Shown here: piece after piece, positions 3,226-22,966 of the stretch | Layout of the letters: each line of letters opens with the position of its first letter | Position numbering within the stretch: the first letter of the stretch is position 1 | Assembly (NCBI GenBank): GCA_024743215.1 | Contig: JANSWZ010000005.1 | Location: 248,001 to 312,000 of the forward strand | Length of the DNA stretch: 64,000 bases | Reading direction: 5' to 3' | Source: Alphaproteobacteria bacterium | GTDB taxonomy: Bacteria; Pseudomonadota; Alphaproteobacteria; Rhizobiales; GCA-2746425 | Made by a program: the position numbers and the translations under genes | Notes under the pieces: model-generated | The model's database searches: none | Told to the model about the DNA's origin: nothing | What the model saw: the letters and a program-made list of their open reading frames with translations, nothing else

Positions 3226-4827
3226 TTACTTGGATACTTTCCAGTAGGCGGCAGCTGTAATAGCGGCGCCGATTGAGAAGCCCTGAACGTTGTCTTTACG
3301 TGCAGTCTGCTCGATTTTCTGGAACATAACGCCAAAAGGTGATGTGGCTTGATGTTCGCGCTGGATCGCCTGATACATTTCAGCGCGTTTTTCGCGATCA
3401 TTCTCAACAACAGCTGCAGCAGTTTGCTCAGTCATTGCCGGGATATCCCATGCGTTCCGCCAAGCCAGGAAACCAGTGTTGCCTGCTTCGTCAGAATTAT
3501 CCGGGTTCATTGCAAAAGTGGCTGCATTTGTATGTGGATCGGGATAATCCGGTCCCCAAGCACCCAGATACATGTCCAGCTCGCGTGCACGATAACGGGC
3601 CAGGATCTGCTTGGCAGTTCCGACCGTAATGTTCAGCTTGATGCCAGCCTGTGCAAAATTGTTCTGAAGGGCCTGAGCAATTTCGATACGCTCTTGTGCT
3701 TCACGAACACCCACTTCGATTTCGATTCCGTCGCCATAACCGGCTTCCATCATCAGGGCTTTGGCCTTTTCGATGTCCAGGCTGTAAGGCAGGTCATCGA
3801 TAGCACCCAGATAGGTTTGCGGCAGGAAGGCCTGCTGAATGGTATACTGACCTTTCAGGAAGCTGTCGCGCATGCCCTCGTAATCCACCAGATATTTTGT
3901 GGCTTCGATGACTTTCGGGTTGGAAAGCGCTTCATTCTTCTGGTTGAGTGAGAAATACATCAACCGGCCACGCAATTCACTGTCGACGGTAATGCCTTCA
4001 GCGTCTGAAATGCCAGCAACATCTTCCGGGTTCAGGTTGCGGGCAACATCAATATCACCGCGTTCCAGCAACAGGCGCTGTGTCGCGCTTTCCTGAACGT
4101 GGCGGACAATGACGCGGGCCATGGCTGGCGCGCCGCCATAATAGTCAGCATTTGCCAGCATGGTGACCGACTCATTGGCCTTCCAGGCAACATCCTTGTA
4201 AGGGCCGGAACCAGCTGTGTTGGTTTTCAGCCATTCATTGCCCAGATCGCCATCAACTTCATTTTCCATGACAGTCTTACTGTCGACAATGCCACCGATT
4301 GTAGCGGTCAGGCAGTTGAGGACAAATGACGTTGCATAGCGCTTGTCAGTTGTGATTGTCAGGGTCTTGTCATCGGTTGCGACGATGGTTTCGCCGACGT
4401 TTTCCGGTGTGAAGCCAAACTGAGTGAGAATGAAGCTTGGTGTCTTGTTGAGCGTAACCGCACGACGCAGGCTGAATTCTGCATCTTTCGCTGTGACCGG
4501 GTTTCCTGAATGGAAAGTCACACCATCGCGCATTGTGAAGGTAATTGTCTTACCGTCTTCAGAAACTTCCCAGCTTTCGGCCAGATCAGGCTGATAGCCT
4601 GCTGCAAGATCTGCAGGGTCAAAGTTGACGAGACGGCCATAGATATTGCGCAGCACGTCTGATCCGGCAAACTCGAAACTCTCTTGTGGGTCGAGCGTGG
4701 TGATATCATCAATCCGGTTGGCGATAATCAGCATGTTCGGCGGGGTGTCGGCAAAAGCAGGTATCACTGCTGTTGACGCAACTGCGCCAAGCGCAACACC
4801 GGCAACCAGTGTTTTAATCAGGTTCAT
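3226..4827 (-). CDS. Peptide-type ABC importer substrate-binding protein
   Basis: Periplasmic solute-binding protein (SBP_bac_5 family) that delivers ligand to the two permeases; 533 residues. I chose the ATG at 4825-4827 because AAGGAG precedes it by about 7 nt and it opens a clean signal peptide ending AFA before DTPPN (cleavage near residue 26). An upstream in-frame ATG at 4881 would add 18 non-signal residues. Family motifs include the early block LDPQESFEFAGSDVLRNIYGR and FTMRDGVTFHSGNPVTAKD. First gene of the operon, so it should be the most abundant product. Ligand is unknown. Confidence 0.93.
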   Translation of the reverse strand: MNLIKTLVAGVALGAVASTAVIPAFADTPPNMLIIANRIDDITTLDPQESFEFAGSDVLRNIYGRLVNFDPADLAAGYQPDLAESWEVSEDGKTITFTMRDGVTFHSGNPVTAKDAEFSLRRAVTLNKTPSFILTQFGFTPENVGETIVATDDKTLTITTDKRYATSFVLNCLTATIGGIVDSKTVMENEVDGDLGNEWLKTNTAGSGPYKDVAWKANESVTMLANADYYGGAPAMARVIVRHVQESATQRLLLERGDIDVARNLNPEDVAGISDAEGITVDSELRGRLMYFSLNQKNEALSNPKVIEATKYLVDYEGMRDSFLKGQYTIQQAFLPQTYLGAIDDLPYSLDIEKAKALMMEAGYGDGIEIEVGVREAQERIEIAQALQNNFAQAGIKLNITVGTAKQILARYRARELDMYLGAWGPDYPDPHTNAATFAMNPDNSDEAGNTGFLAWRNAWDIPAMTEQTAAAVVENDREKRAEMYQAIQREHQATSPFGVMFQKIEQTARKDNVQGFSIGAAITAAAYWKVSK

Positions 4828-4881
4828 AGAACTCTCCTTACAGAAATGGGGTGAGCGAGTGATGCCCGCCCAAGCGATCAT

Positions 4882-10798: not shown

Positions 10799-10814
10799 TT
10801 AATCTATGGTTAAC
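10799..10814 (+). promoter_or_regulatory. CtrA box upstream of the peptidoglycan-binding / lyase-like gene
   Basis: TTAATCTATGGTTAAC matches TTAA-N7-TTAAC exactly, the site bound by the cell-cycle regulator CtrA in alphaproteobacteria. It ends 36 bp before the proposed start at 10851, a usual position for a CtrA-controlled promoter. Binding is inferred from the motif. Confidence 0.6.
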
Positions 10815-10850
10815 AGGCGGTGCAGGGGGTGCATTGGCAAGGGTGTCAGT

Positions 10851-12323
10851 TTGCGTAAATTTACTCTTTTTCTGGTAGCGTTCTATTTTTGTGTTTCTGG
10901 TGTTCATGCCCAGTCCAATGAGACTGTTGCCTATGTGCAGGAAGCTCTTCAGGAATTAGGGTATGATCCGGGAACTGCAGATGGATCCTGGGGTCGGCGA
11001 ACCCGAAAGGCGCTGAACGAATATCGCGCCGCGCTTAACCTTCCTGAAATGGAAGATGTAACCGGCTCGTCGCTCTACAGCCTTCACCGTTCGGTTGCCG
11101 CCGGACAGACTTTGCCGCATCCCGGGCGCGTTCTGGAAGGGCTGGGTGAACGTGCAACCTATCTTCAGCAACGTGGCCTCGTTCGCGAGCGGCACTGCAA
11201 CAACAGGCTGAATTTGCGCTCCATTGGGGCGAATTGGACTCCTGTCACGCGCTTTTCCGAAACTGATGTCTCATTCGCGGCGCCGTCACCCTTCGGTGCC
11301 GAAAACTGGTCCTGGACGATTGCCGAAGGCTTGTCGGTCGCTTCAGCGAGTTGTATGGCTGGCGATACAGCCCAATGCGATGTTTTGTGGTCCTATTTGA
11401 AGAAGTGGCCGAGGGCGAATGGTCTCAGCACCGCTGCCAAGAAAGTTGAAAACTCCGAAAAATTCAACCGCACTGCCTATCTTGCCAATACGGTTCTGCA
11501 GCCAATGGTGTTGGCCACCGCTGTTGTGGTTGAAACGCAGAACCCTCCACTGGAAGAGCTCGCTCCTTTGCTTGACTGGCTGTATGGGCGGGTCAATCAG
11601 TACTATTTCATCTCCGACAAAAACACGCTTGTGGGGGATACGGACAATACGCTGGCCCGGCACGAGGCGCTTGCAGCTGTATTGCCAAGCATGACGCTGG
11701 GTGCGTTCATTGGCGATATTGAGCTGTTTGAGCGCGGCTTCCCGCAATTTGAGGCTGCCTTGTTGAGCCAAAGGCCAGATGGCAGCTTTCCCACAGCGAC
11801 CAAACGCGGCTCTCTTGCGCTGCATTATTCCGGGTTACAATTGTCCTATCTGTTTGCCATAGCCGAAATCGCAAAATCTCAGGATTTCGATCTTTATGAA
11901 GTGAAGTGGCCAAAGGGTCAGGATTTGCACAGGGCCATTACCTATATGCTTCGTGGCTGGTCCAATTGGGGCAAGCATGTGCTGAAATATGCCAACGAAA
12001 ATGATGACGCGCCCATGACGCCCAGCAGTGCGGCGATAGAGAAGTTTACCTATGGTTTTGGGTGGTTGCCTGTTTATGCCCGCCGCTTTGAAAACCACCC
12101 GAACCTGTCCTTGATGAATGGCGTGTCGATTGATCCTGTGGTGTGTTCACCAGCGCATATTGCCGAGGGGCGGGTCGACAGGGCCTGGTGCGCGCAAGCT
12201 GGTCCGCCACCTTTGACGCTAAGGGCCATGTTGCTGGACAATACATCCAAAGTTGCAGTCTTCAATCCGGCTATGGGTTTCAAATCAGGGTGCTTTCTCT
12301 CTACCGCCGAAGACCTGTTCTGA
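10851..12323 (+). CDS. Exported protein with peptidoglycan-binding domain and alginate-lyase-like domain
   Basis: About 490 residues from a TTG at 10851, preceded by AAGGG. This start gives a compact signal peptide (LRKFTLFLVAFYFCVSGVHA, cut near residue 20). An upstream in-frame ATG at 10806 lies inside a CtrA box. Residues 28-70 form a peptidoglycan-binding type 1 domain (VQEALQELGYDPGTADGSWG, then RTRKALNEYRA). The rest resembles the alpha/alpha-toroid alginate lyase family (PL5-like): TDNTLARHEALAA, and RPDGSFPTATKRGSLALHYS followed by a leucine-rich helix and DFDLYEVKWP. A role in trimming or binding an envelope polysaccharide is inferred. The family assignment of the second domain is by motif resemblance only. 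Confidence 0.6.
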   Translation: MRKFTLFLVAFYFCVSGVHAQSNETVAYVQEALQELGYDPGTADGSWGRRTRKALNEYRAALNLPEMEDVTGSSLYSLHRSVAAGQTLPHPGRVLEGLGERATYLQQRGLVRERHCNNRLNLRSIGANWTPVTRFSETDVSFAAPSPFGAENWSWTIAEGLSVASASCMAGDTAQCDVLWSYLKKWPRANGLSTAAKKVENSEKFNRTAYLANTVLQPMVLATAVVVETQNPPLEELAPLLDWLYGRVNQYYFISDKNTLVGDTDNTLARHEALAAVLPSMTLGAFIGDIELFERGFPQFEAALLSQRPDGSFPTATKRGSLALHYSGLQLSYLFAIAEIAKSQDFDLYEVKWPKGQDLHRAITYMLRGWSNWGKHVLKYANENDDAPMTPSSAAIEKFTYGFGWLPVYARRFENHPNLSLMNGVSIDPVVCSPAHIAEGRVDRAWCAQAGPPPLTLRAMLLDNTSKVAVFNPAMGFKSGCFLSTAEDLF

Positions 12324-13683: not shown

Positions 13684-13699
13684 TTAACAGGTCCTTAAC
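13684..13699 (+). promoter_or_regulatory. CtrA box 1 upstream of candidate small RNA
   Basis: TTAACAGGTCCTTAAC is an exact TTAA-N7-TTAAC match. It lies downstream of pobA and upstream of the candidate small RNA. Its centre is 42 bp, four helical turns, from the second box, so two CtrA dimers would sit on the same face of the DNA. Confidence 0.65.
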
Positions 13700-13725
13700 A
13701 GGCTCTTTCCATAAAATATGTTGCG

Positions 13726-13741
13726 TTAAGTAAGCATTAAC
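13726..13741 (+). promoter_or_regulatory. CtrA box 2 upstream of candidate small RNA
   Basis: TTAAGTAAGCATTAAC is a second exact TTAA-N7-TTAAC match. It lies where the -35 region of the candidate small RNA promoter should be, the usual position of activating CtrA sites. A possible -10 (TTAATC at 13744, or TACCTT at 13752) follows. Confidence 0.65.
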
Positions 13742-13759
13742 CTTTAATCTCTACCTTAG

Positions 13760-13864
13760 AGTGTGTTCGGTACGTTCCGGACTGTCAGATGGTCACTCCC
13801 CCATCTGATTGGACGCCTCCCTGTTAGACTTACAGAGCCGCTTCCTCCTGCGGCTCTTTTTTTG
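13760..13864 (+). ncRNA. Candidate trans-acting small RNA with anti-Shine-Dalgarno loops
   Basis: No reading frame explains this stretch, but it has the build of a bacterial small RNA. Hairpin 1 at 13786-13807 has a perfect 7-bp stem CAGATGG/CCATCTG and the loop TCACTCCC. A single-stranded linker contains GCCTCCCTG. Hairpin 2 is an intrinsic terminator whose loop is TTCCTCCT, complementary to ribosome-binding sites. Exposed CU-rich anti-SD loops are typical of several alphaproteobacterial sRNA families, such as the rhizobial alpha-r and cuckoo RNAs; I cannot say which family, if any, it belongs to. The 5' end is estimated from the promoter-like region to within about 5 nt. Confidence 0.6.
13834..13864 (+). 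terminator. Intrinsic terminator of the candidate small RNA
   Basis: A perfect 8-bp stem AGAGCCGC (13834-13841) and GCGGCTCT (13850-13857) encloses the loop TTCCTCCT and is followed by a run of T residues from 13858. It is the strongest terminator in the window. Confidence 0.9.
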
Positions 13865-14000
13865 CGTTTAATTTGGAATCGGGTCAGAATCCAGGTGTTG
13901 AAATGCAACCACTTCAAGCGTTCATGTGGATATTAACGAAGAACCAACTCAATTGGATCGGCAGCTTGCACGGCGGACCCGGTCAACTCATAGTTCCTTT

Positions 14001-14051
14001 TTGACACTTATCTGGCTATCATGATCATGATAGTGGGTTCCGGGTCGAATC
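14001..14051 (+). promoter_or_regulatory. Promoter region of the RcdA-family gene with 18-bp palindrome and GANTC site
   Basis: TTGACA at 14001-14006 is a good -35 element. Ten bases on, CTATCATGATCATGATAG (14016-14033) is a perfect 18-bp palindrome over the expected -10 region, so a bound protein would block initiation. A GAATC methylation-type site follows at 14047-14051; two more GAATC sites lie at 13876 and 13887. The binding protein is unknown. Confidence 0.5.
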
Positions 14052-14073: not shown

Positions 14074-14625
14074 ATGACGCGCAACAACCAGACGCCACAT
14101 GGGGGCAACGCTATTGCCATTGCGTCCCGCTTAGCGGAACGAGAAGGCTTTTTGGCCCTGTTCAACAATGGCATGCGCCTGATTGAAGAGACGGCTTCTT
14201 ATCTGGATGGTCCTGGACGTGATGAGTCAAAGGCCTTGTCGCGGCTTGGTTCGGTCGCTTATGCCAGCGAATCCATGCGTCTGACGACCCGGCTGATGCA
14301 AATTGCCTCCTGGCTGCTGCTGCAGCGCGCCGTCAATGATGGTGAAATGACGGACGGGCAAGGCCGGGATGAAAAAGCAAAAGTGCGCCTTGGCGGTCTT
14401 CAGCCGTCTCGCGCCGGATCTGGCTGGGAAGAACTGCCGGATCAATTGAAGGATCTGATTGATCGCTCCGCACGGCTGGAGGAGCGGGTTCGACATCTGG
14501 ATGTTGGTCTGGGTGGCGAATCGTTTGGCTCTTCAACACCCGCAGCCCAGTCCGGCACCAAAGACGCATTGGCCGACCAGATGGCCCGCTTAAGCGCCGC
14601 TTTCAGCACGCAGGACGATCGCTGA
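14074..14625 (+). CDS. rcdA: DUF1465 family protein, RcdA-like regulator
   Basis: A 183-residue helical protein of the DUF1465 family. The block SRLAEREGFLALFNNGMRLIEETASYLDG, then SVAYASESMRLTTRLMQIASWLLLQRAV, is the conserved core. The characterised member is Caulobacter RcdA, an adaptor that helps ClpXP degrade the cell-cycle regulator CtrA. The C-terminal 50 residues are polar and probably disordered, as in RcdA. No partner gene such as cpdR or popA is nearby. Function in this organism is inferred from the family; the gene name is less certain than the family. Confidence 0.75.
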   Translation: MTRNNQTPHGGNAIAIASRLAEREGFLALFNNGMRLIEETASYLDGPGRDESKALSRLGSVAYASESMRLTTRLMQIASWLLLQRAVNDGEMTDGQGRDEKAKVRLGGLQPSRAGSGWEELPDQLKDLIDRSARLEERVRHLDVGLGGESFGSSTPAAQSGTKDALADQMARLSAAFSTQDDR

Positions 14626-22806: not shown

Positions 22807-22966
22807 CAGAAGCTGCGCTTCTCGTGATGCACGACTTATTCTTGGGGCCTTATCAATCCAAACGGGAGCTGTTCCTGACCTGGCTCGTGGGCCGGGACAT
22901 ACGGCGCCCACCTACGTAGTAGGTTCCCAGGATTGTTCACCGTATCACGGTCGCCGCGGCTTCGCT
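22807..22966 (+). ncRNA. ssrS: 6S RNA
   Basis: This stretch lies directly upstream of 5-formyltetrahydrofolate cyclo-ligase, the classic position of 6S RNA. A 9-bp terminal stem forms between GAAGCTGCG (22809-22817) and CGCGGCTTC (22955-22963). Inner hairpins include CCTGGCT/GGCCGGG, ACCTAC/GTAGGT and CCGTATCACGG, leaving an open central part as needed to mimic an open promoter. 6S RNA binds the housekeeping RNA polymerase in stationary phase. A -10-like CTATAT at 22795 fits a start near 22807. Ends are estimates. Confidence 0.82.

Follow-up and report, generated by a model that had tools for sequence, protein, structure and literature searches.

In the 64,000-nucleotide stretch of DNA analysed here (the window), the proximal of two exact CtrA boxes upstream of rcdA is probably a CtrA activator site, predicted from sequence comparison, and the gene that it would serve is a free-standing one for a trans-acting small RNA (sRNA) of the BjrC1505 type. 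The features concerned are listed below in order of position.

13684-13699, + strand: distal CtrA box TTAACAGGTCCTTAAC, an exact 9/9 match to TTAA-N7-TTAAC
13726-13741, + strand: proximal CtrA box TTAAGTAAGCATTAAC, an exact 9/9 match to TTAA-N7-TTAAC
13752-13757, + strand: probable -10 element TACCTT, placed by the box-anchored consensus and the genus alignment
13764-13863, + strand: sRNA gene of about 100 nt, a BjrC1505 homologue, from RF02356, model R1 and the fold; predicted start
13765-13782, + strand: stem-loop 1 (GUUCGG...CCGGAC), from fold and covariation
13784-13809, + strand: stem-loop 2 with a C-rich loop (CACUCCCC), from fold and covariation
13811-13831, + strand: conserved seed GGACGCCUCCCUGUUAGACUU, anti-Shine-Dalgarno-like, from alignments A1 and A3
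13834-13864, + strand: Rho-independent terminator AGAGCCGCUUCCUCCUGCGGCUCU and U run, from the fold and compensatory changes in A1
13934-13949, + strand: degenerate CtrA box TTAACGAAGAACCAAC before rcdA, a 7/9 match in sequence
14001-14028, + strand: sigma-70-like rcdA promoter, TTGACA-16-GATCAT, a consensus match separate from the promoter of the sRNA
14074-14625, + strand: rcdA (DUF1465), PF07323 with E 7e-52

The small RNA before rcdA, a candidate in the original prediction, is supported by comparison as a real gene, through homology, fold and conservation. The RF02356 (BjrC1505) model matched the window copy over its full length (1-140 of 140), with the conserved GACGCCUCCCUGUU core and the terminator present. 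The match scored 46.7 bits (E 1e-7) and did not reach the cut-off of 50 bits, so the window sRNA is called a homologue and not a formal member of RF02356. The cut-off was passed at the same position upstream of rcdA by loci L138, L140, L144, L147 and L148. At the gathering threshold, 6S RNA alone was matched by Rfam across the window (22807-22966, 74.6 bits). The window sRNA scored 64.9 bits against R1, a covariance model built from the transcript part alone with the promoter left out, and trained on a set that included the window sequence and left the other rcdA loci mostly outside.

The stretch at about 13764-13863 folded much better than shuffled sequence (z -4.35). Covariation was assessed in 46 diverse sequences for three helices, namely the two stem-loops and a weak seed hairpin. 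In these sequences 92.9% of cells were paired, against 35-49% in slid versions of the helices, and double changes were seen at 8 pairs against a shuffle mean of 3.1. The helix equivalent to stem-loop 1 had double changes at 4 of its 6 pairs; that equivalent to stem-loop 2 was 97% paired and had them at 3 of 6. The seed core GCCUCCCUGU was near-invariant in alignments A1 and A3. Within 13797-13854 the loop of stem-loop 2 (CACUCCCC) and the terminator loop (UUCCUCCU) were also C-rich in the genus, giving three anti-Shine-Dalgarno-like loops per RNA there when the seed is counted. A small protein encoded by the same stretch is disfavoured, because the homologues differ by indels and share no common start codon.

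R1 was searched in loci fetched by the RcdA protein alone. The sRNA was found upstream of rcdA on the same strand in 99 of 110 such loci (28/30 and 71/80), with a median distance of 169 bp from the sRNA end to the aligned rcdA start; an rcdA locus on a Sphingomonas plasmid gave no sRNA match. In the class-wide sample, 16 of the 30 top hits lay at most 1 kb upstream of rcdA. The other 14 were on other contigs, tens of kb off, upstream by a few kb, or from genomes that yielded no DUF1465, and 9 of these 14 carried the box at its expected place; further class-wide matches carry it at a slightly shifted position. The sRNA and its box lie 42 kb from rcdA in genomes G101 and G227, and both occur in G061, a genome in which the search for DUF1465 found none. 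Extra sRNA copies were also seen: those of G269 stand in tandem upstream of rcdA on contig 10 (locus L156), and G061 has several. The fact that the sRNA is found away from rcdA, often with the box retained, indicates that it is a separate gene, independent of rcdA.

The RcdA homologues of Caulobacter and S. meliloti are known as adaptors for CtrA proteolysis (PMC4433202), and the same role is predicted for the rcdA product in the window, which shares 51% identity with the DUF1465 protein of S. meliloti. The assignment of this gene to the RcdA family can be made firmer: it is an rcdA orthologue, as shown by a single copy of DUF1465 in the genome and by a gene order common to S. meliloti, in which rcdA is followed by rpmE on the opposite strand and then by an ABC transporter. 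Of the 95 distinct loci of the box test set, 41 have a box matching at least 8/9 positions in the interval from the sRNA to rcdA, and in the closest relative (L029) this box is exact (9/9, TTAACGAAGAATTAAC). Thus rcdA often seems to have a putative CtrA site of its own, and the corresponding box in the window, TTAACGAAGAACCAAC, is a decayed one as judged by its letters. The putative sigma-70-like rcdA promoter is conserved in 4 of 5 genus members. A perfect 18-bp palindrome, CTATCATGATCATGATAG, is located at this promoter (14016-14033) and is largely kept in the genus (alignment A2); it is possible that it is the operator of some regulator.

The same layout could be read differently. The boxes might drive rcdA itself, the intervening stretch being a long 5' leader with the terminator as an attenuator, so that CtrA would activate its own degradation factor by read-through. 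The boxes are on the same strand as rcdA and a short distance from it, the layout is kept across many families, and Caulobacter rcdA is activated by CtrA (PMC4287350, PMC4433202), all of which would agree with such a leader. It is nevertheless unlikely, because boxed sRNA copies occur away from rcdA, as in G101, G227 and G061. In addition, a strong terminator stands between the boxes and rcdA, and rcdA has promoter signals of its own, with the CtrA box noted above in a good share of loci (41/95).

Conservation of the boxes was scored in the 95 loci, and the proximal box was counted when it matched at least 8/9 and started 30-45 nt before the model start. The proximal box was found at the expected place in 75 of the 95 loci, and upstream control windows of equal width gave 0-2; the remaining 20 loci were without a box of this quality at that place. 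Its conservation spans Hyphomicrobiales and distant members of the class. The distal box, in contrast, reached at least 8/9 in 3 of the 95 loci, all in the genus, with 8/9 in relatives L030 and L031. The original prediction had treated the two boxes as a pair and called for a check of both in relatives; the proximal box withstood this check, the distal box was kept in the genus alone, and the pair as a conserved unit had to be given up. The distal box may be a genus-level addition that strengthens binding.

The consensus anchored on the box in the 75 loci reads GTTAAs-N5-ATTAAsCTTT; a TTATTA-like -10 signal comes next, 10-13 nt downstream of the box in relatives. The proximal box therefore falls over the -35 region belonging to the -10 signal, with respect to a predicted start site. 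CtrA boxes over the -35 region are activator sites at known CtrA-activated promoters, and the arrangement of the box and the putative -10 element is the geometry of such a promoter. The Rfam consensus of RF02356 itself opens with a CtrA-box-like stretch, UUuACggccuAUUaac. CtrA is encoded in the genome, with 80% identity over 226 aa to a query sequence taken as C. crescentus CtrA.

Some promoters are repressed by CtrA, and two in-phase boxes could form a repressing complex. On this basis CtrA at the promoter might silence the sRNA, or rcdA, during periods of high CtrA. We consider repression improbable, since the conserved box occupies the -35 region, 5' of the -10 signal, and does not cover the start site, and the second box of the would-be pair is unconserved.

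As had been claimed, both boxes match TTAA-N7-TTAAC exactly and are offset by 42 bp. Both are near-palindromic, and on the - strand each gives a further exact match, displaced by 1. The window held 6 strand-hits of the exact box at 3 sites, where dinucleotide shuffles of the window would be expected to give 0.05. The third site, TTAATCTATGGTTAAC at 10799-10814, lies about 30-45 bp 5' of a GTG codon at about 10845, the probable start of the gene at 10806-12323, whose product is secreted and combines a peptidoglycan-binding domain with an alginate-lyase-like one. The genome scan that had been proposed gave 27 strand-hits, equal to about 20 distinct sites, in the 5.09 Mb of this genome. With 20 sites, about 0.003 box pairs within 42 bp would be expected by chance, so the pair is not an artefact of frequency. 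The exact motif showed no genome-wide enrichment over a reversed-pattern control (96 hits); conservation is therefore the real test, and frequency is weak evidence. That the boxes are chance matches or relics beside a housekeeping promoter that controls the sRNA would fit this lack of enrichment, but it is very hard to reconcile with a position-specific box in 75 of 95 loci and near-zero controls, and we give it almost no weight.

Activation of the sRNA by CtrA from the proximal box is thus the reading we prefer, and its timing, mode of base pairing and targets are proposed as follows. CtrA~P would bind the proximal box over the -35 region and turn the sRNA on while CtrA is high. Transcription would run from about 13764 to the Rho-independent terminator at about 13863. 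The C-rich seed GCCUCCCUGU or the loops would pair with ribosome-binding sites of the GGGAG type and lower translation of a set of mRNAs. A separate promoter, itself often CtrA-boxed, would transcribe rcdA, whose product would mark CtrA for degradation. The region may act as a small CtrA output module, made of a regulatory RNA and a factor ending the CtrA phase, because rcdA follows with its own, often CtrA-boxed promoter.

Start regions complementary to the seed were searched in five genus genomes, and the encoded proteins were classed by reading their N-termini. Transporter binding proteins made up 15 of the 21 ORFs found. A changed control motif, AACTGGGAG, also yielded 9 of 18, and no target is claimed for this reason; a second changed control, AAGAGGGAG, yielded none. 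In the S. meliloti record the seed pattern had three sites, one of them 5' of a TRAP binding protein. A focused test of seed pairing with the start regions of ctrA and rcdA gave results no better than shuffled sequence, and a scan for duplexes between the sRNA and the sequence upstream of ctrA was too noisy to interpret. Feedback of the sRNA on CtrA is consequently without support. Of the idea of a CtrA-controlled sRNA beside rcdA, the conserved box at the sRNA promoter is supported, and the two boxes as a unit are not.

In S. meliloti Ak57 (locus L198) the order is box, sRNA, box, rcdA, rpmE and ABC transporter. The upstream box, TTAACCGCAAATTAAG, is at 4677-4692, and the sRNA at 4730-4815 was matched weakly by R1 (23.7 bits, E 4e-4), this copy being without the GACGCC half of the core. 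A second CtrA-like box, TTAACCCTTTCTTAAG, is located nearer rcdA at 4851-4866. ChIP-seq in S. meliloti placed CtrA at the rcdA promoter, and rcdA was unchanged on CtrA depletion (PMC4433202). Binding of CtrA at an unresponsive rcdA is expected if the upstream box serves the sRNA. The ChIP peak need not be that of the sRNA, however, because the second box is closer to rcdA.

On balance we favour, with some reserve, a wider view in which BjrC1505 RNAs would be an ancient and overlooked CtrA output. CtrA would turn on both halves of a single module, the sRNA as a translational regulator and RcdA as the destroyer of CtrA itself, and some of the CtrA binding at rcdA in rhizobia would belong to the sRNA. 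The output could have been overlooked because the Rfam family is undetected in the Caulobacter model genome: BjrC1505 was searched through Rfam in 14 well-known genomes and none was detected, and DUF1465 did match in Caulobacter vibrioides. If Caulobacter lacks the gene, or has a copy that has diverged too far, work on that genus would have missed such an sRNA. An sRNA family known as sequence alone gains a context that bears on function: its promoter carries a conserved CtrA box, and it has long kept its position next to rcdA. The S. meliloti puzzle of CtrA bound at an rcdA that is unaffected by CtrA gains a testable explanation. The findings suggest that, in many Alphaproteobacteria, control of translation through an sRNA is part of what CtrA puts out.

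Several known sRNAs resemble the one in the window. The mmgR/suhB family (RF00519) and other CCUCC-loop sRNAs share with it a CCUCCCU...AGACUU motif before the terminator; membership of RF00519 was rejected at 24.1 bits, far under the cut-off of 41, and the 5' part and the neighbouring genes are different. EcpR1 of Sinorhizobium meliloti is likewise a conserved Hyphomicrobiales sRNA of similar size, and it is tied to the cell cycle (PMC4414408). Unlike the window sRNA, EcpR1 lies beside divK-pleD/rpmG, is stress-induced and has the loop UCCGCCGCAUCU; this loop is absent in 13764-13863 and the neighbour genes differ.

CcnA of Caulobacter crescentus has, like the window sRNA, a CtrA-boxed promoter and a C-rich loop, which in CcnA pairs with G-rich start regions (PMC8959179). 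CcnA is 182 nt long, comes from a gene at the replication origin and has ctrA and gcrA as targets, whereas the window sRNA is about 100 nt long and is encoded beside rcdA, between a FAD monooxygenase gene and rcdA, a setting unlike that of ccnA. The pairing of the window sRNA with ctrA was no better than that of shuffles.

The closest likeness is to BjrC1505 (RF02356) of Bradyrhizobium and Rhodopseudomonas, which shares the conserved core, the pair of stem-loops and the terminator and, at the loci that pass the cut-off, also lies upstream of rcdA; the window copy differs from it in falling short of the 50-bit cut-off, at 46.7 bits. BjrC1505 was reportedly seen on RNA blots, with a level that falls in nodules. 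The paper behind the family, as it is cited in PMC4842269, deals with expressed sRNAs of these two genera. In the literature within reach, no paper was found that links BjrC1505 or an rcdA-adjacent sRNA with CtrA. The kind is already known, since Rfam lists the RNA family and CcnA is an example of a CtrA-linked sRNA (PMC8959179).
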